Shown one piece after another: positions 29,201 to 57,600 of a stretch of 64,000 nucleotides of DNA. Each line of letters begins with the position of its first letter. Positions within the stretch are counted from its first letter, which is position 1. Below the pieces are notes generated by a model that had not been told where the DNA came from, did not search any database, and saw only the letters and a program-made list of their open reading frames with translations. The translations under genes were made by a program, and so were the position numbers. Source of the stretch: Mesodorylaimus sp. YZB2_4 (Eukaryota > Nematoda > Enoplea > Dorylaimida > Dorylaimidae); assembly GCA_030248295.1 (NCBI GenBank), contig JASANH010000497.1, forward strand, positions 186,001 to 250,000, written 5' to 3'.

Positions 29201-31759
29201 ATTCGGTAACATGATCAGATACCAAGTTGGGGCACATCAGCGCGTGGGTCGAATGTTCACTGTTCACTGTGGGGTGTGTGGGTCAAATGTCCGCTGGCCA
29301 GACACAAGTATGGGAAGAAGAGGCCCCCCTGTTGGGCCGGCCAGGACGTTGAACCCTTCCTCTCGATTCCCCCCCCCCCACCTCAGGTCCGGCAGGAAGA
29401 GAGAAAAGGAAGCAAGCAAAAGCAAATTGTGTGGGCAGGACCATGACCTGACCTGACGGACCAAGCCCTGGCCTCCAAGCACAGGCCAGTTGTCCAGCCA
29501 GCCTACAGTACTGTAAGCAGTCATGCAACTCACCCACTCGATTCGACCCGAACCTGACCTGTCTCACACGCAATCAGATCAGGCGTAGGCGATCTGATCT
29601 GATCTGATCTCTACCCTCAACCCCCTTCCCCTCTCACCCAGCCGACCTCGTCCATACTTGGCCAGACAACAGGAAACAGCCAACTTACATCAGAATGTCC
29701 GCGGGACATCTAATCTACATTCTGATCCGGTCTGGTGGCCAGTGTATCAGACTGTCGGTCGAATCCGACGGACATTCTAATCTGACAGTGGCCCACAGTC
29801 TGATCTGACAGTGGCCCACAGTCTGATCTGACAGTGGCCCACAGTCTGATCTGACAGTGGCCCACAGTCTGATCTGACAGTGGCCCACAGTCTGATCTGA
29901 CAGTGGCCCACAGTCTGATCTGACAGTGGCCCACAGTCTGATCTGACAGTGGCCCACAGTCTGATCTGACAGTGGCCCACAGTCTGATCTGACAGTGGCC
30001 CACAGTCTGATCTGACAGTGGCCCACAGTCTGATCTGACAGTGGCCCACAGTCTGATCTGACAGTGGCCCACAGTCTGATCTGACAGTGGCCCACAGTCT
30101 GATCTGACAGTGGCCCACAGTCTGATCTGACAGTGGCAGTGGCACCCAGTCTGATCTGACAGTGGCCCACAGTCTGATCTGACAGTGGCCCACAGTCTGA
30201 TCTGACAGTGGCCCACAGTCTGATCTGACAGTGGCCCACAGTCTGATCTGACAGTGACAGTGGCACCCAGTCTGATCTGACAGTGAGTATAATCTGACAG
30301 TTTTACCACGTCTTGCCAACATTCTCTCTTCGTCTCTCGACTCCCAACCACTCGAATTTTGCAAGACTGCATTGCATACCTGAAGCAAGAAGAAATCCCA
30401 GCGTATCGAATAGGTAAACTGGCCTCGGGTAGCCACTCGTCTCGATGATAAGCTGCGATCGGTTGCTCACTAGTTGCGATCAAATATTTTTCCTCCTCCG
30501 CCTTTTCACCTTTCTGCTCCGAGCTTTTACCAATGACCTAAAAAATCACATTATAAAAAATATAAACTGCTCCACTCATTTCTCATACCTTGTACAACTG
30601 ATCATCGAAATCGCTCAGCTGCGCCACTTCTTGCATGACTTCTTTACGCATAAAAAATGGCGTATACAAAGCCGTATATTCTTTATCCGCCAAAATGCGC
30701 AAGGCTAATTGAATAAGTGCCTGTTCAAGAAATACCAGGGGACCCTAAAAAAGAATTTTTCAAATAAAAATCCCCACATTCCATAACCGAACCTTCAAAT
30801 AATATCCACGAGCACCGGCCACAACGGCGCCTCGTTCCAAATCGCATCCATCAACCATCACAGCCAAATCGACCTGAGAATACTTTTTCTTCGTTGATGT
30901 ATCGCCCCACGTTCGTTCAACTTTGTTATTTTCCTACAAGCAAAAGAAAACTTGATTTTTATTCGCTCTTAATCGAAATTTTAAACGGAAACGTTAAAAG
31001 ATGGTTTTTAGCGACCAGTTTCGCCCCCGCACTCACTTCATTATCGCTAACAGGAACTGACTCGTGTACGACATTGCCAATTTCTCTCAACGCTCCGTTG
31101 CGACTATTTTCCAATTCCACAACTCGAGCGCTATTTTTAACCATTTCATCTTCAATAGTTTTGCTAATTTTTTTAATTTGAACTACCGTCAATGTCTAAA
31201 TTTTTTAAAGGAGCAAAAAATCAGTATATTGATGCTTAACAAATTAAAACTGCTTAAAACCTACTGCTGTACAGTATTTTGCGAAAGCAAAAATCATACT
31301 TTTATCGTATCAGCTGTCAATTGAATTAAATTATCAACGAGCCCATTCGGAAGTTGATCGTCATCGCCAACTGGTTCTTTTTTCTGAAAAAATTTAAAAA
31401 ATTATATTTCATTACTTTGACAAAATTTTTGTCTAACCTTCATTTTTTCACCGACTTCTTTGCTACAAAGGTTTTTCAATCGATTATATTCATCCGCTAA
31501 GAAACGACCTGAAAATATGATAAAAGTACTTGGATTACCTACAAAAATTTGAAAATAGATTGGCGAAGGTGGAAATCCCGAGAACACAAAAAATCAAAAA
31601 CCATTTTTTGTTACTTAACTCACATTTTCTCCATTCTTTATCAAGATCGATAACTCGATCTACCAATCCCGCATCGGCGTATCGTTTTCGCTGACTTTCT
31701 CGAATCTTTTCCGGATCTCCGCCTTTTTCCTCTCGAAACAACTCCAAATCCAAAACCAT
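26270..31759 (-). CDS. SARS1: Cytosolic seryl-tRNA synthetase, 12 exons
   Basis: Charges tRNA-Ser with serine in the cytosol. Minus-strand exons: 31759-31624, 31508-31438, 31383-31300, 31195-31037, 30933-30793, 30744-30589, 30537-30380, 29183-29120, 29067-28938, 28463-28306, 26553-26424, 26395-26270; about 505 aa, the usual length. Residues 1-150 form the N-terminal tRNA-binding coiled coil ([19 protein letters not shown]). Class II motif 2 is [18 protein letters not shown] (about 306-323); ATP/serine-site blocks are [19 protein letters not shown] and [16 protein letters not shown]; motif 3 is [19 protein letters not shown]. The lysine-rich tail after [13 protein letters not shown] matches animal cytosolic enzymes. 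Every junction is in phase except the last: 26424 ends at phase 1 but the reading frame at 26395 needs phase 0, across only 28 nt. Confidence 0.95.
26554..28305. other. SerRS intron 10, 1.75 kb, repeat remnants
   Basis: GC-richer than flanking introns, with C-runs near 26605 and 27650 and a GGCGGGAATTCAAAATTCC motif at about 27790. No coding frame with family signal was found. Confidence 0.5.
29184..30379. repeat. SerRS intron 7 carrying a 23-bp minisatellite (about 29785-30290)
   Basis: About 20 units of CAGTGGCCCACAGTCTGATC + TGA (23 bp). Two units near 30135 and 30255 share the same variant (AGTGGCACCCAGTC after an extra CAGTGG or CAGTGA), suggesting a higher-order duplication. Since 23 is not a multiple of 3, all three minus-strand frames stay open with a 23-residue period; these are not genes. 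GATCTGATCTGATCT also occurs at 29598. Confidence 0.95.
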
Positions 31760-43261: not shown

Positions 43262-43942
43262 TCAGGAACACCCGTTCGGTTTGATTTCTTTCCACCAATT
43301 ATCTTTATAATGGTATTTTTGAATTTCTGCACCTTCGCGAGGCGCGGGAAAAGATAATGCTTTTAATTTAATTTTATTCAATGGTCTATTAATTAATTGC
43401 ATGGGAAATGCATCAGCCGCATCGGCCGCAACAGGAATCGGAATTAATCGATTTAATCCAATTCGTCTCATTTGATTTTCGAATCGATCGAATACGTACA
43501 ATCGTAAAATTCCATTCGATTTTCCTTTTTCTTCGAGCCAAATTGAATATACGCCTTGCGAATTACTATATTCCATTTCCATTTTACGAAAACGAAATAA
43601 TCGACGAAAATAATTTTCATCCATCCGCCATAATAATTCTTCATTTATTATACAAAAATCAAATTCACGTTTCCACGGTAATAAATCGCCATGCCGCAAT
43701 GCACCCCATAATGTACCGTAACACAAAAAATGTGTGATATTTTCTTTATTTAAAATCTCATCAGTCATCGATGCGAGTTGTAATAAATTTGAATGAATTT
43801 TCACATCCGGATTGCAATCGATTTTTATAGGTTTAGATTTAAAAATATTTTTTTCGATAAATATAAAAAGCAAAGCGAAGAAAAACAAAACCAAGACGAA
43901 CATAAAACATCTTCGAGGTGTTAGAAATCGCCGTATCGACAT
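43262..43942 (-). CDS. LicD/fukutin-related type II membrane protein, single exon, 226 aa
   Basis: A short basic N-terminus (MSIRRFLTPRRC), one hydrophobic helix (about residues 13-32) and a lumenal domain give type II Golgi topology. The core ITHFLCYGTLWGALRHGDLL followed by PW is the hallmark of LicD/FKRP/fukutin nucleotidyl- or phospho-sugar transferases. In active members PW is followed by an Asp-rich D-x-D-x-D-type motif; here it reads KREFDF, keeping only one Asp and one Glu. Shorter than FKRP (about 495 aa) and lacking its N-terminal stem. Function is therefore uncertain: possibly a substrate-divergent or catalytically weak member. Intronless among intron-rich neighbours. Confidence 0.8.
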   Translation of the reverse strand: MSIRRFLTPRRCFMFVLVLFFFALLFIFIEKNIFKSKPIKIDCNPDVKIHSNLLQLASMTDEILNKENITHFLCYGTLWGALRHGDLLPWKREFDFCIINEELLWRMDENYFRRLFRFRKMEMEYSNSQGVYSIWLEEKGKSNGILRLYVFDRFENQMRRIGLNRLIPIPVAADAADAFPMQLINRPLNKIKLKALSFPAPREGAEIQKYHYKDNWWKEIKPNGCS

Positions 43943-49675: not shown

Positions 49676-49679
49676 TTTT

Positions 49680-50812
49680 TCCACTCTCTCTATGCTATGC
49701 TATGCTAAAGTTTATTATGCCAAAAGACTTACCAGTCCACTGATGAGGCACAGCACATAAAACAAGGACAAGATAAAGTTGAAATAAAAGCATGTCAAAA
49801 ACGAATCTTTGTCACAAAATCTTTGAACTCGGTAAAACAACTAAAAGCGATGGTGCTTGGTATCACAGTGTTCCATAAAGTCATTGAAGAAAATTCAAAA
49901 CTACCGTGTCGATAATCCGTTTAATCAGATGATCACAAGCATCGTTGACAGACGGTGCCGAAACTACTAAAGTAACACATGCCTCACTTGATATAGCTTG
50001 ATTGACGCTGTTCCAGTCAACATTCCGTAGACGCCAAAACAATCGTGTATCTAGGGGTCTCGGAGGAGGACGGTAAAGCAGTTTTATCGAAATCGTGTCG
50101 TGATCGGACGTGTGAATTGGAGGGAGCACTGTGGTAGAGACGTGCCTCGAAGCATCCCCAACAATACATAAATCAAGGAGAGTTCGACTATGACGTGTCG
50201 GTGTATCCACAGTTTGAGCTCCATCAATCGACGAAATCAGCTTCAAGATTGAGTTTCTGGCAGGCGACGGGTGCAGAAGGTCAGCGTTCAGATCCCCAAT
50301 AATTACCAGCCGGCTATAATTATGCCGCAGCAGACGCGTGGAATACCGTAATAGATCGTCAATAGCGGCTGGGGGATGTAGACAAATAAGCACGTTATTG
50401 AATCAGTGCCAATTCCAATGCGTAAGGGCAGGACTTCCAATTTTGATTGAAAAACACCAAGTTCGGAGGGCGCTTTTAGACGAACTACAGGAATAATCCC
50501 GAACTACAGGAATAGATGACCGAATGTATGCCAAAACACCACCGCCACCTTTCGTCCTATCAAATCGATAGATGGAATAATCGGCTAGATTCAGTTCACC
50601 ATCGTCCGTAGTGCAATCAATTTTAGATTCGGCTACTCAAAAAATATACTGGGAAGCCACAATTTCCGCTTTTAGATAATCAATCTTTCCAAGAATCCCA
50701 TTGACATTTGCAAATCCAACATGCAAATTCTTGCTTTGCGTGGAAGGTATAGGACAAACAGAGCGTGGTGCACAACCGACCACCCCTGACGCCATATAGT
50801 TTTCCCTCTCTG
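49680..50812 (-). mobile_element. Non-LTR retroelement copy 1 (endonuclease kept, RT deleted)
   Basis: Inverted relative of 53526-54640. Minus strand begins ATGGCGTCAGGGGTGG near 50797 and encodes an APE/L1-type endonuclease region. Readable signatures include FANVNGILGKIDYLK, RLVIIGDLNADL and HTSDHDTISI (catalytic N, D-x-N, S-D-H). It carries a partial local duplication (ATTCCTGTAGTTC twice near 50490), a short deletion near 50375 and a broken frame near 50640. Downstream of the endonuclease stop is the RT-ORF C-terminal remnant (see findings), then (TAGCA)n. No RT region. Confidence 0.85.
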
Positions 50813-53525
50813 ACATGGGCAAGATCATAGTCACATCAGATGTTCAAAATGTCCTCCTTCAAAACTTATGCGTTGCACCTGATTGTCGACTGCAGCCATC
50901 AAGTCATTTTTTCACCCCATGTAGGTTTCTTCTTGAGCGATGTAACGTAATTTACGCTGTTGCTGCTCGTAGAGGACATTTTTCTTTCCAGACCAGGTCT
51001 AAAATCCAACCAGCGTTACCAGGTCTGCAACACAATAATGCCCCAGATGCAGGTTCAGATTGCCCTAAAATTGCCCTAGACCCAACTTCCAGAAAAAAAT
51101 GCAAAGTAGGCCCTTTAAAAAAGTGCCTGCCAGACACTCAACATTATTCCAACCAAGCCATGATTGCGTGTTTGAATACCACATCAGTTTTTCAAAGGCG
51201 CCAGCAACTTCCAATGCTTCTTCGACATCTCCACCCAGCTTGCCATCAAGGAAAACACACTTTGGAACAGCGGCATTGTCGAGAGAGCTAAGACAAAGTG
51301 CCAAAATCTCAGATTGCCCTAAAACCTGCCCTGACAGCTTGAAATTGCCCAGATCCAGGGCAATTGCCCTGCGCCTGGCAACGCTGAATCCAACCCGTTT
51401 TTTTTTGGTTTTTGGGTTGAGTTGAGTCCAGCGATGTTACAGTCAACTGAAACTGAAACTCGCCAAAACTGAATTTAACTGTAACTGAATCTTTTTAGAA
51501 TCAGTTAAATTCAGTTTTCAAGTTACTTCGCTTTTGAAAATTAGTAATCTGTTTGCGGATGTTCGCGCTGGTTCCAATCATCTTATTCGCGAGTTGGAGG
51601 TGTATTTGTCACCCTTAAAACGCTAGTTATCGTAAAAAATCGATCCATTCGAATTTTGGTCCAAATGTAGAGAGAAGCTGCAAAATGTTCACGAATATTG
51701 TAGTGCTTCATCATGCCCGCAGGCTAGCGCCGAGTCGAAGAAGTTATAAGCTAGGCGAGGTCCAAGTTGAAAAGCAGTCGGTACAGTATCATAAAATAAA
51801 AGTAACTACAGTTCATGAAAAAGGGTTTCTTCAGTTTTAATCATTTTATTACAAACATTTTAAAGTTACATCTTCTTGATCTTAGAAAGCTTTGCCAACC
51901 AGTGAGTTGAACTTGACATGCTTATTCGATAATCTCCGAGTTTCTGGTGTGGAAGAAGGCTCTACTGAAAATATTTGACCCTTATGGCCAGCTGGTCAGC
52001 AGCGGTCAGCTCCTAAAATCTTGCGGGTTTCTTAAATTCGTGTGTTGCGAGGCGACAAAAAGTTGAGAAAGACTCGCAGGGCTCTTCTAAACCCGCAGTT
52101 CAGGTTATGGGCTTTGGTTCCGTCTTCCAGGCTTCTGGTTTTGAATTTTTTTGCACAAAAGACCTGACGAAGCGAGAATGTTTCCAAAAATTTGCAGGAC
52201 TTCGGCCGCTGACCTCTGCTGAGTAGTTGCCCAAACGAGCGAAATATTTTGCGCAGAGGTTTCTTTTGGACCAAAAGAAATTACAATCATGAGCTATGGC
52301 ATTAGAATTAGAACGGTTACAAGGATCAGGTACCTGGTCTGCCTGCGGATTTGTTGGTGGGTGGACTGTCGAGACATGGTCGTGCATCGCTGTGCTCGCA
52401 AAGGACCCTCTGGTGTTGACTTTGGTCTTAACTGCGCCTTGTGAGCTGTGAGTCTGAAATGCGGAAGAGTAGTTATTTGAATGAAGAAAAGTGGAGATTG
52501 TTCTCGTCAAGTGTTCACATCTTGATGCGAAATGCTTTTTAAGGAAAAACTGAATCATTCAGTTAAATTCAGTTGACTGAATCTTTTGAGATCCAGTTAA
52601 CTGTAACTGAAACTGAATCTTTTCCCAAAACTTTATTAACGCTAGTTGGGTCAGGTTTTTAGACAGGGTGGTTTTGGGTTGTGCAGGTTGACCTCTTTCG
52701 AACCTAACCCAAAAAAATCACTTTTCCACTCAGCAGGAGTATGTGGTTAATCGGCACAGCTTGAAGCCACTGCGACATGATGTCGGTGGGTTTCTAGTCG
52801 ACAGATCCTGGTATTTCAAAAACGTACCCAGCGCCCCCCCCCCCCCCCGCAGCTAGTCTGATTCGACATGTCACGGCGACGATTCGACTGCGACGGAACT
52901 GAGAAATTGTCTGTCAGCAGATGATATCGAGCTCTGACGATCTTTTGTCGACTCGCAGTCAGAGATCAGGCCGGCCAGGTCCAAATTTTGACGGTTTGTG
53001 TAGGTCAGAATCCATGAAAGGTCCAGCCTTTGCTATAGGTTTCGAGTCGAACAGATCCTGGAGTGACAAAAGCGTTCAGCTGCCACGGTCATCGATCGCG
53101 GCAGTGATCTCATAAGCTGGATTGTGCGCCCAACGGCACAGAAGTCGGGCGCACAATCCAGCTTATAAGATCACTGCCGCGATCGATGACCGTGGCCGCT
53201 CGATAGTGTTAGAAATAACCTCAAGGTCAAGGTCTGAATTCTGTCAAAACCCTGATTGACCGACCCTTAGTCAAAGTCAGGGTCAAGGTCAGAAACTTTT
53301 CGGGGTCTGGTCAAGGTCAGGGTCAGGTCAGAATTTCTTGCACCCGGTCAGAGTATTCTGACAGCGAAAGAAAGTAAATTTAGTGAAATGTTGGTGAAAA
53401 ATTTCAAGCTCCTGCCTTCCCGAGTAGGGATCTGGGGGGGGGGGGGGCAGTTTTTTGTTCTGAGTCCCAAGGCATGTCCTAAATTCTAGGACAGTCCTAA
53501 GTCATTTCACAATCAGAAAAACTGG
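50813..53525. repeat. Repeat-rich stretch, no gene
   Basis: 51000-51390 is built from TTGCCCTA/GGGCAATTGCCC phrases, related in inverted orientation to 54700-54825 (GGCGCAGGGCAATT). 51437-51530 and 52555-52625 are clusters of AACTGAAACTGAATT/AATTCAGTTAACT phrases bounding about 1.1 kb. A C15 run lies at 52834, a G14 run at 53436, and AGGTCA-rich text at 53218-53346. Confidence 0.6.
53083..53195. repeat. Near-perfect inverted repeat, 49-bp arms, 15-nt loop
   Basis: Arms from CCACGGTCATCGATCGCGGC ... to GTGCGCCC and back; a single mismatch (ATCTCATAAGC against GCTTATAAGAT). The loop is AACGGCACAGAAGTC. Confidence 0.95.
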
Positions 53526-54640
53526 ATGGCGTCAGGGGTGGTCGGTTGTGCACCACGCTCTGTTTGTCCTATACCTTCCACGCAAAGCAAGAATTTGCAT
53601 GTTGGATTTGCAAATGTCAATGGGATTCTTGGAAAGATTGATTATCTAAAAGCGGAAATTGTGGCTTCCCAGTATGATATTTTTGGAGTAGCCGAATCTA
53701 AAATTGATTGCACTACGGACGATGGTGAACTGAATCTAGCCGATTATTCCATCTATCGATTTGATAGGACGAAAGGTGGCGGTGGTGTTTTGGCATACAT
53801 TCGGTCATCTATTCCTGTAGTTCGTCTAAAAGCGCCCTCCGAACTTGGTGTTTTTCAACCAAAATTGGAAGTCCTGCCCTTACGCATTGGAATTGGCACT
53901 GATTCAATAACGTGCTTATTTGTCTACATCCCTCGCCAATTCCCAGCCGCTATTGACGATCTATTACGGTATTCCACGCGTCTGCTGCGGCATAATTATA
54001 GCCGGCTGGTAATTATTGGGGATCTGAACGCTGACCTTCTGCACCCGTCGCCTGCCAGAAACTCAATCTTGGAGCTGATTTCGTCGATTGATGGAGCTCA
54101 AACTGGATACACCGACACGTCATAGTCGAACTCTCCTTGATTTATGTATTGTTGGGGATGCTTCGAGGCACGTCTCTACCACAGTGCTCCCTCCAATTCA
54201 CACGTCCGATCACGACACGATTTCGATAAAACTGCTTTACCGTCCTCCTCCGAGACCCCCAGATACACGATTGTTTTGGCGTCTACGGAATGTTGACTGG
54301 AACAGCGTCAATCAAGCTATATCAAGTGAGGCATGTGTTACTTTAGTACTTTCGGCACCGTCTGTCAACGATGCTTGTGATCATCTGATTAAACGGATTA
54401 TCGACACGGTAGTTTTGAATTTTCTCCAATGACTTTATGGAACACTGTGATACCAAGCACCATCGCTTTTAGTTGTTTTACCGAGTTCAAAGATTTTGTG
54501 ACAAAGATTCGTTTTTGACATGCTTTTATTTTAACTTTATCTTGTCCTTGTTTTGTGTGCTGTGCCTCATCAGTGGACTGGTAAGTCTTTTGGCATAGTA
54601 AACTTTAGCATAGCATAGCATAGCATAGCTTGGTATCCCA
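53526..54640 (+). mobile_element. Non-LTR retroelement copy 2 (endonuclease kept, RT deleted)
   Basis: Starts ATGGCGTCAGGGGTGG; the frame 53526-54125 carries the APE-type endonuclease motifs (FANVNGILGK, DIFGVAESKID, GGGVLAYIRSS, GDLNADL) and a 2-nt deletion near 54105 puts the SDH block (HTSDHDTISI) in the next frame, 54088-54432, ending NFLQ-stop. Just after, in another frame, 54434-54520 reads LWNTVIPSTI ... FKDFVTKIRF-stop, the usual C-terminal end of jockey/CR1-type RT ORFs. The element closes with GGCATAGTAAACTTTAGCA and repeats of TAGCA (about 54610-54632). The whole RT is missing, at the same point as in copy 1. Confidence 0.88.
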
Positions 54641-57600
54641 CCCAAGGACACCAGGCAGTCATACAGTAAGTTAAAGGCACTCACTGGTGTCTTTATTTTC
54701 TAGCAGCGCTGTCAGGCGCAGGGCAATTTCCCTTGATCTATGGCAATTTTGAGCTGATCTTTTTAGAGCAACTTTTTGGGCGTCTTGAGATTGTGGCATT
54801 TTGCGTTAGCTCTCTCGAGCCGTAAAAATGGTTCTTTTTCAGCTGAACTAAAATTCTGTCGTCCCTTTTTAACCATTGAGGCCAAAAAGGGACGACAGAA
54901 TCCCATTATCATCATTTTACTCCTTCATCCAAGCATACATGCATTTGACAGGGGAGGGGGGACACAGTATTAATTAAAACTTTTACGCGTGATAGGGTCA
55001 CTAGCAAGCACGATCCCGTAAAACAGTCGCAGAAAACACAAAACTCTGTGGACTCAAAATTATGACTTGGAAAAAAACAAATGATGTGGTTCACGCAGTC
55101 TGCTGACATGACGGTCAGATTCTGTGCATAAAACGAGGATTCCCAAATCGCTAAACCCATGGTAAACCTTATAAAATAAAACCAATTTGGCACGTTTACA
55201 GAGCTCATATAATGTGGACCAGCCCGTAGATTCCCATTTCCGCGAGTGTCCCGATTCAGCGAGTGCTTTTTTACTTGCCCCTCAAACGCGGCCGCCGCGA
55301 CTCGAGCGTACCTACTGTAACCGCTCATTTAGTTCATCCGTAAAGTTTTAACGCTGTGCAGAAATTTTCTTTACTCTACTGCTACAATATGCAATAAGAT
55401 CCATCGTTAAATTAGACGACATCATAAATGTTAAAGTGAAAAAAAGACAAAGGAAACTGGCAATAAAGCGTACACAGCTTGTCAGTAGGGCGTCAGTAAG
55501 ACACCGTTTTTTGCTATATTTTGATCGGCCTGATTTTTCTGAACCTTCAAGTCGTCCGTATGACTGTTCAGTCATGTCCGGTATGAGGGCATGGCATAAT
55601 GGTATTCCTACAGGCAACCAAAGTCTTGGTGTTGCTCTTTGAACAGTACACACACGGTACATTACCTTCTTCATTAACGAGGTATACAATTGCTTGAAAT
55701 GCCTTGGACATGTTTCAAATGTACCGTTTGCCACTCAGAATTCTGACTGATGCAAGGCCTTGAGCTGGTTCAAAGAACAAAAGACACAAAAAATTGTCTC
55801 CGCCATTGTACAAAAGCAGTTGATCAGCTAGTGCAATCGGACCATGGTCTTGCGAACCAAAGCGCTGTCTGACGATTCTTCCATGTAAGCGAGCATTCTT
55901 CTCTTCACATTTTTTTGCATCTGTAACAATGCGAGACTCCACCACCAGCCAATTGTGTAAACTTGGTTTTGCAGAATAAATTGTAACGATTTTCCAAAAC
56001 CGAACATTAATGCAAAAGCATGTCTTCCGAATTTGATGATAAGAATTGCGGCACAATAAAATCTTCATTTGCAATAAAGTTAGCCAATAATTGCTTAATC
56101 CATAAGATTTTTGCAAATTAAAGTTTCAACATACTGACAAGCGCAAATTCACTTTACCTATGAAATCTTCACAAGTGTTTTCGAGCTTGAGATAGGTAAA
56201 GTGCTTATGTACCTGCGCGCGTGTGCGCTTGCCACTCGTGCACTCGCGGATATGGGACACTCGCTGAATCGGGACACAATCGACCAGCCTGCCTTTGCCG
56301 AGGCGTCCTCGCGACGCAGTAAAATTATTTAGATACAATGGCGCAGCAAACTTGGACCAGTAATGGGTGCCCAGCTTACACGTACAGTATGTATTTCCCG
56401 CGTTAAATTTTGTTGTCCGCTAAAATGTCTCAAGTCAACCTTTTTAATTATGAAACAAGATAAGACCTGTCATTGGACGCGCCTAAATCCACGGATAAGG
56501 CACCCCTAGAACAGCTGTTGTGACACGTCCTGAATTAGTGTCTCGGCGCTGTCCCAAGTTGCTGTCTAATAGTGCCCTGAATTCGTACTGTGAAACTGGC
56601 CCCAGCTGATTGAGTCTGGTGCTGTTGCATTTGTCCTACTCGTCCAGTCCCCTACCAGCCCAGCTGCATGGACTACTGTGTCCCAGCGTAGTGTGTGTTT
56701 GCGAATGCCATCCATGCGTGGCCTAGCCATCCCTATTTCTTCCCATTCGTTCATATCCAAACTTGGCGTCATTGGAGCGAGGTATTTTGGCTGTACCAGC
56801 CAATTCTAGCCTGGTAAGGCTCCTGTTCTCAAAAGCCAGCATTGCGATTGGTGGGAAAAGATATCGATCATGTGGAGGCAGTTTGAGCAGGAATCGATGT
56901 GTAACCCCCCGCCTGGTAGGCCATGGCGAGTGGGAGAGAGTAATCGATACTCTCCCCTGGCTGGGAAACGTCAACCCCTCGGGTTGATGTTTCAGCCGTA
57001 GCTATAGTCGCAAGACTATCCTGCTCCAGTCGGAGTTTTTGTCCCGCCGACTTCGGTCGGCCGCCTCCCTCCTACGCCTACCAGGCTTGGTTACAGATGT
57101 TATAACGAAATAAATCTACTTTTGATTTTCAATGGGTGTTAGCTTCTCTAGTTTTCCCGAAGCCATCAAAAACAGCTTTGCATATCTTTTTGAGCTTGAA
57201 AAAATTTAGTTTCTTGGACTGCCCGTGAAATTTCACGTAATGCCAGAAAATTGTCAGCTGTAGTGAAATTTCTTGGTAAAATTGCAAACACAGAAGCTTT
57301 GTTGCTGGTGCCGGTTAAGCAAATTTTTTTGTCTGATCAGTGCCAAAGTCAGAGCCAGAAAATTTACAATTCCTCGCAGGTCAACGGTCAGGTCAGAAAG
57401 TTTTTTTAATTCGGTCAAGGTCAAGGTCAGGTCAGAAAAGTTTTTGAGGGGTCGGTCGAGGTCAGGGTGAGGTCAGACAGTGCAAAACCCAGGTCATTAG
57501 AACATTAGTTTGGGTCGAATTGTGAACCATTTTGGGGCCTGGTTTCTAGAATAGACCAACTATGGAGCGGAGAGTGTTCAGATCTGGGAAATCAGAAAGC

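Follow-up and report, generated by a model that had tools for sequence, protein, structure and literature searches.

Two inverted LINE copies in the nematode Mesodorylaimus sp. YZB2_4 retain both ends and lack reverse transcriptase

Known internally deleted LINE derivatives

Long interspersed nuclear elements (LINEs) can give rise to non-autonomous derivatives by internal deletion, as in the case of NARTc/L1Tc. TbRIME, Ag-Sponge, and NARTc are multi-copy families with short terminal segments. Here, a stretch of 64,000 nucleotides from the nematode Mesodorylaimus sp. YZB2_4 (contig JASANH010000497.1, positions 186,001 to 250,000; hereafter the window) is described that contains two inverted, 5'-complete copies, each ~1.1 kb long, of one LINE with an endonuclease of the APE (apurinic/apyrimidinic endonuclease) type. 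The reverse transcriptase (RT) is gone from both. The pair is best read as an RT-less LINE derivative of an already known kind, similar to short internally deleted elements (SIDEs).

In Drosophila, R2 and R2/R1 SIDEs retain both ends after an internal deletion and owe their mobility to the machinery that intact elements supply; their proposed origin is a template jump or recombination (PMC3414825). TbRIME and Ag-Sponge are further cases of internal deletion, and SIDEs of non-LTR (non-long terminal repeat) elements are called rare (PMC3414825). The mammalian HAL1 (half-L1) encodes only ORF1p, the product of the first open reading frame (ORF), and arose several times (PMC5753468). Spliced integrated L1 elements (SpIREs) lose the 5' untranslated region (5'UTR) or 5'UTR/ORF1 through GT-AG splicing and are mostly dead on arrival (PMC5860796).

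Like R2 SIDEs, the window pair represents an internal deletion of a non-LTR element with the 5' and 3' ends retained (PMC3414825). Whereas R2 SIDEs are specific to ribosomal DNA, combine a 5' ribozyme with the 3' end, and form old lineages (PMC3414825), the window pair is dispersed, comprises two copies, is close to its relatives, retains the endonuclease segment, and has no Rfam ribozyme match. The pair shares with TbRIME and Ag-Sponge the status of a non-autonomous LINE derivative from internal deletion (PMC3414825). Unlike these two and NARTc, it retains ~890 bp with the endonuclease region and was found in two copies only. HAL1 is likewise a non-autonomous LINE derivative without RT, but it keeps ORF1 and loses ORF2, whereas the window pair retains the endonuclease segment (PMC5753468). 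SpIREs also show an identical junction in internally deleted insertions at different sites; in contrast, the window pair loses RT, and the edges of the lost stretch are GT...AA (PMC5860796).

The original prediction, made from the letters of the window alone, regarded an endonuclease-only non-LTR derivative with two fixed ends as unusual. This view should be softened, as the R2/R1 SIDEs, TbRIME, and Ag-Sponge already combine an internal deletion with both ends, although non-LTR SIDEs are described as rare (PMC3414825). A literature search of partial coverage, aimed at non-autonomous or RT-less LINE derivatives, found none that keeps the endonuclease without RT. Measured against internally deleted LINEs of the SIDE/RIME type, the pair keeps both ends and has a common internal junction. 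Its two insertions lie at unrelated targets, yet conversion could have spread the deletion between them. Amplification into a family was not seen, with two copies at ≤3 junction mismatches.

Structure of the two copies

Each copy consists of ~890 bp with an APE-type endonuclease fused to the 3'-terminal ~215 bp, whose end is the (TAGCA)n tail. The original prediction of two inverted copies holds, with bounds revised from 49680-50812 and 53526-54640 to those listed below. Alignment also bears out the same 5' end, endonuclease segment, junction, and (TAGCA)n tail in both. The features of the pair, including the target-site duplication (TSD) of copy 1, are as follows.

49690-50799, minus strand: copy 1, endonuclease segment plus 3' segment, RT missing; bounds from empty-site comparison
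53517-54629, plus strand: copy 2, LINE copy with internal deletion; the span includes five leading A that the empty site lacks, and the last three bases (AGC) are ambiguous between element and target
49677-49689, no strand: TSD of copy 1, 3' end, TTTTCCACTCTCT
50800-50811, no strand: TSD of copy 1, 5' end, TTTTCCCTCTCT, shorter by one base
53526-54125, plus strand: endonuclease frame of copy 2 (PF03372, E 1.9e-11); a 2-bp deletion shifts the frame, with a stop at codon 200
54410-54411, plus strand: deletion junction of copy 2, GACACGGT/AGTTTTG (slash at the junction)
49902-49903, minus strand: deletion junction of copy 1, bases identical to those of copy 2
54411-54518, plus strand: C-terminal remnant of the RT ORF, 35 codons plus stop, not in the endonuclease frame
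54606-54629, plus strand: (TAGCA)n tail of copy 2
53220-54930, no strand: dispersed repeat split by copy 2, with uninterrupted relatives elsewhere (e.g., C210:933-1518, 93%)
50804-53517, no strand: inter-copy stretch of ~2.7 kb, containing another dispersed repeat (~51445-52648)

The PF03372 endonuclease domain was detected in copy 2, the copy covered by the domain scan. The endonuclease frame runs seven codons beyond the junction and then stops (VVLNFLQ-stop). The remnant, SFEFS.MTLWNTVIPSTIAFSCFTEFKDFVTKIRF-stop, lies in another frame, identically in both copies, as had been predicted. Both endonuclease frames are now broken, and differently so: copy 1 by a stop at codon 53, copy 2 by the frameshift and the stop at codon 200. 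The sequence common to the two copies begins at CTGGATGG in copy 2 and at CTATATGG in copy 1. The AAAACT reported before the ATG is present, but it is not simply part of the element, as its AAAA belongs to the TSD in copy 1 and the A5 of copy 2 is absent from the empty site. With regard to an HDV-like (hepatitis delta virus-like) ribozyme at the 5' end, no ribozyme family is present among 38 Rfam matches (E ≤ 1) at loci L002, L010, and L011; the listed matches are below the gathering score and, except for Actino-pnp, belong to microRNA-type models.

The parent element and its relatives

A search with the C151 copy as query returned 18 loci at ≥92% identity, both window copies among them. This count is a lower bound, for which pieces of one element were merged, rows matching only the C151 flank were dropped, and 40 of 625 candidates were scored. 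At least two further loci hold only the last ~90 bp of the element. The RT-bearing parent that the original prediction proposed to seek is represented by C145 and C151, which are near full length, with endonuclease, RT, and 3' end present. C392 apparently carries the same three parts, split by an insert of ~12 kb (C392:35790-47935). This insert has an inverted short motif, AGGCACACCCTCTCAATCG, at its two ends. Six loci are 5'-complete (C145, C151, C392, C163, and copies 1 and 2), and in each the start codon follows the 5' end by a few nucleotides. For the remaining 12, the match begins at differing internal points and runs toward the 3' end.

The C145 copy has a 739-aa open frame with Exo_endo_phos (PF03372, E 9.9e-14) and RVT_1 (E 4.8e-31), and its best sequence relatives in the PDB are R2 and LINE-1 ORF2p. 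The endonuclease and RT domains, the 5'-shortened copies, and the TSD on copy 1 identify the parent as an APE-type non-LTR retrotransposon. Its RT-bearing members are ~95-98% identical to the deleted copies in the endonuclease segment. More distant relatives encode ~46-56% identical proteins in open frames of ~980-1,056 aa. The RT motifs GVPQGSVLGPILF and AYADDL may point to a CR1/Jockey-like clade.

Some individual copies have features of their own. An array of TTAGGC-like repeats adjoins the 5' end of the C151 copy (locus L010), a motif reminiscent of nematode telomere repeats. In the C163 copy, a partial second copy of the first ~17 bases of the element precedes the 5' end.

The deletion junction

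The junction removes ~1.85 kb including RT and is blunt, with no microhomology to the parental edges. In the assembly of 145,146,385 bases, it is matched at ≤3 mismatches in two places, both in the window, which is the outcome of the genome-wide count suggested with the original prediction. The reversed junction, used as a control, has no match in the same bases; the two matches are thus not due to chance. Because two copies were found genome-wide, 2.7 kb apart, the word "family" in the original prediction is too strong. Five places have the undeleted boundary at this point (C145, C392, C151, C163, and C190).

The removed stretch begins with GT and ends in ...CTCAA/AG. Across the 16 3' edges compared, two of them duplicates of one insertion, the last bases are CAA in 15 and CGA in one. 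Breakpoints of the family, comprising the 5' ends of shortened copies and the 3' edges of deletions, were taken by hand (n = 15, with the C312 duplicate counted once). Four of the 15 fall within 51 bp (2798-2848), with a scan P of 0.024 under uniform placement and 0.12 under a 3'-biased model. Among these four are the 3' breakpoints of both family deletions and the 5' starts of two shortened copies; the cluster weakly hints at an RT pause site with a template jump. The second of these deletions, of ~0.95 kb in the RT region, is a separate event in the C163 copy (C163:19119-21142, L009/L003). A GA microhomology was read by eye at its junction, which is single-copy in the assembly.

Target sites

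Comparison of the 3-kb outer flanks and the spacer showed that, outside the element ends, the two copies have only short repeats in common, the longest being 123 bp at 89%. A true duplication in the same family, the C312 pair (77 and 89 kb), served as a positive control and has flanks that are 98.4-99.2% identical over kilobases. For copy 2, seven uninterrupted relatives were aligned, and the empty site reads CAATCAGCTTGG or is one base off. For copy 1, two diverged relatives lack the element, at 72% (C11:1091981-1092283) and 69% (C28). Inspection of the TSDs, proposed with the original prediction, gave a clear result at copy 1: 12-13 bp, TTTTCC(A)CTCTCT, with one copy of the motif in the empty C11 relative. 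The motif is not conserved in C28. Relatives without the insertion exist for each copy, and similarity between the copies does not extend past the element; they are therefore two insertions at unrelated targets.

Relation between the two copies

Within the endonuclease segment, copies 1 and 2 have three substitutions in common that C145, C151, C392, and C163 do not have, and a tree of the six sequences groups copies 1 and 2 with a bootstrap of 97. By these sequence comparisons, the two copies are sisters and appear to have one source. The common substitutions (alignment columns 206, 488, and 597) comprise one silent and two protein-changing differences (S to G vs C163; T to A vs C392), too few to argue for selection on the endonuclease. 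All three are A to G on the sense strand, a number too small to make a case for RNA editing of the intermediate.

The copies differ from each other at seven of 878 aligned endonuclease sites and at four sites of the 3' part, where columns 215-220, at the border of tail and flank, were excluded from the count. The difference is therefore ~1%, and the original statement that the copies differ at many other positions was overstated. Four small indels also separate them (-3, +19, and -10 bp in copy 1; -2 bp in copy 2). All 11 aligned substitutions are private to one copy, as expected from decay after insertion.

Origin of the pair

We consider it probable that the two copies are separate insertions descending from one internally deleted, RT-less LINE RNA that was retrotransposed in trans. 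The deletion links the end of the endonuclease region directly with the final ~215 bp, and it probably arose by RT drop-off with a template jump, or by DNA repair. The source would have retained the 5' end, probably with an internal promoter, since so few nucleotides precede the start codon in the complete copies. It would also have retained the 3' end and the (TAGCA)n tail for recognition by the parent RT. As the deleted form has no RT of its own, that of its relatives may have copied the deleted RNA in trans by target-primed reverse transcription. One window copy was possibly the source of the other, and each would have decayed separately after insertion. The pair is best read as a two-copy lineage, a failed or incipient non-autonomous one, and not as an established family. 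Movement in trans was part of the original prediction; RT-bearing relatives, the sister relation, and the separate targets agree with it, although gene conversion would give the same pattern.

Several observations weigh against this origin. The only two copies are inverted and 2.7 kb apart, and the probability of a random second insertion that near is ~4e-5, which suggests a linked process such as gene conversion, local reinsertion, or regional bias. As assembled, C145, C151, C392, and C163 each lack a single unbroken frame from endonuclease through RT to the end, so no family member was identified as an intact present-day helper. The TSD of copy 2 is at most 2 bp and not clear, and the extra A5 at the 5' end of this copy has no counterpart in the empty site. 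The 3' segment folds no better than shuffled sequences (z = +0.96), and the private substitutions are also compatible with an old gene conversion over the whole element. With regard to an HDV-like (hepatitis delta virus-like) ribozyme at the 5' end, no ribozyme family is present among 38 Rfam matches (E ≤ 1) at loci L002, L010, and L011; the listed matches are below the gathering score and, except for Actino-pnp, belong to microRNA-type models.

Gene conversion is the foremost alternative and a serious one, although less likely. Two endonuclease-bearing copies would have inserted independently 2.7 kb apart, one would have been deleted, and ectopic conversion would have overwritten the other. 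The close spacing, the inverted orientation, and the ~99% identity favor this course, and trans-mobilization is not required. Moreover, with ~19 family insertions, any two of them would be expected this close together in ~0.6% of cases, compared with 4e-5 for two given copies. However, the tract would need to cover nearly the whole element, and there is no positive sign of it: at no site of the element do the copies carry different alleles that are both present in the family, and the private differences are spread along the element, one only 16 bp past the junction. The power of this comparison is low because the family is star-like.

It is rather improbable, in our judgment, that the RT-less, endonuclease-only LINE RNA was taken up in trans and reinserted beside its own donor. 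In that case the pair would be the trace of a local retrotransposition, close to where the RNA was transcribed, and a stand-alone endonuclease may have acted on the DNA around it. We give still less credence to a spliced or otherwise processed parent RNA, under which a full-length parent would twice have yielded an identical shortened RNA, in the manner of human SpIREs, and each copy would stem from the transcript of a competent parent. The identical junction at unrelated sites and the initial GT of the removed stretch fit this idea, but a terminal AG is found in none of the 16 3' edges, and the other four 5'-complete loci lack the three common substitutions. With edges of GT...AA, the stretch is no canonical GT-AG intron, and splicing was rejected.

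Segmental inverted duplication of one deleted copy, the alternative raised in the original prediction, is highly improbable and was rejected: proximity and the same junction would suit it, but the flanks are non-homologous, unlike those of the C312 pair, relatives with an empty site are known separately for each copy, and the similarity stops where the element does, so that both flanks would have to have been replaced. Only two copies with homologous flanks had been named as the mark of one duplication event; the count is indeed two, but the flanks are not homologous. An assembly artefact, either a collapse across RT or a false inverted join, has hardly any likelihood; the analysis rests on an assembly without reads, but RT-bearing copies elsewhere in it indicate that the RT-less state is a real deletion and not a collapse, and the 11 aligned substitutions and four indels mean that neither copy is an assembly echo of the other.

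Other features of the window

The dispersed repeat between the copies (51445-52648, ~1.2 kb) is 85-91% identical to 39 other scored places and has short related motifs, CAGTTAACTGAAACTGAA-like, at both ends. At 53078-53200 lies a near-perfect inverted repeat of 57 nt with a 9-nt loop, 95% complementary; the sub-threshold matches to microRNA families there look like an effect of the hairpin. A 23-bp minisatellite at 29772-30256 (20.8 copies, 96% matches) gives rise to extended repetitive minus-strand open frames, which are unlikely to be genes. Host genes are represented by an RNA polymerase RPB2-type exon (12-764; RNA_pol_Rpb2_5/6) and a LicD-family protein (43265-43942).

Significance

The general picture of LINE biology is unchanged by this pair, for which the ends, the junction, and the empty sites are resolved in both copies. 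It poses the question of local reinsertion versus gene conversion and suggests that the RT of this LINE may accept RNA in trans. With RT-bearing relatives still present, the pair may show how an autonomous LINE begins to give rise to a non-autonomous derivative.

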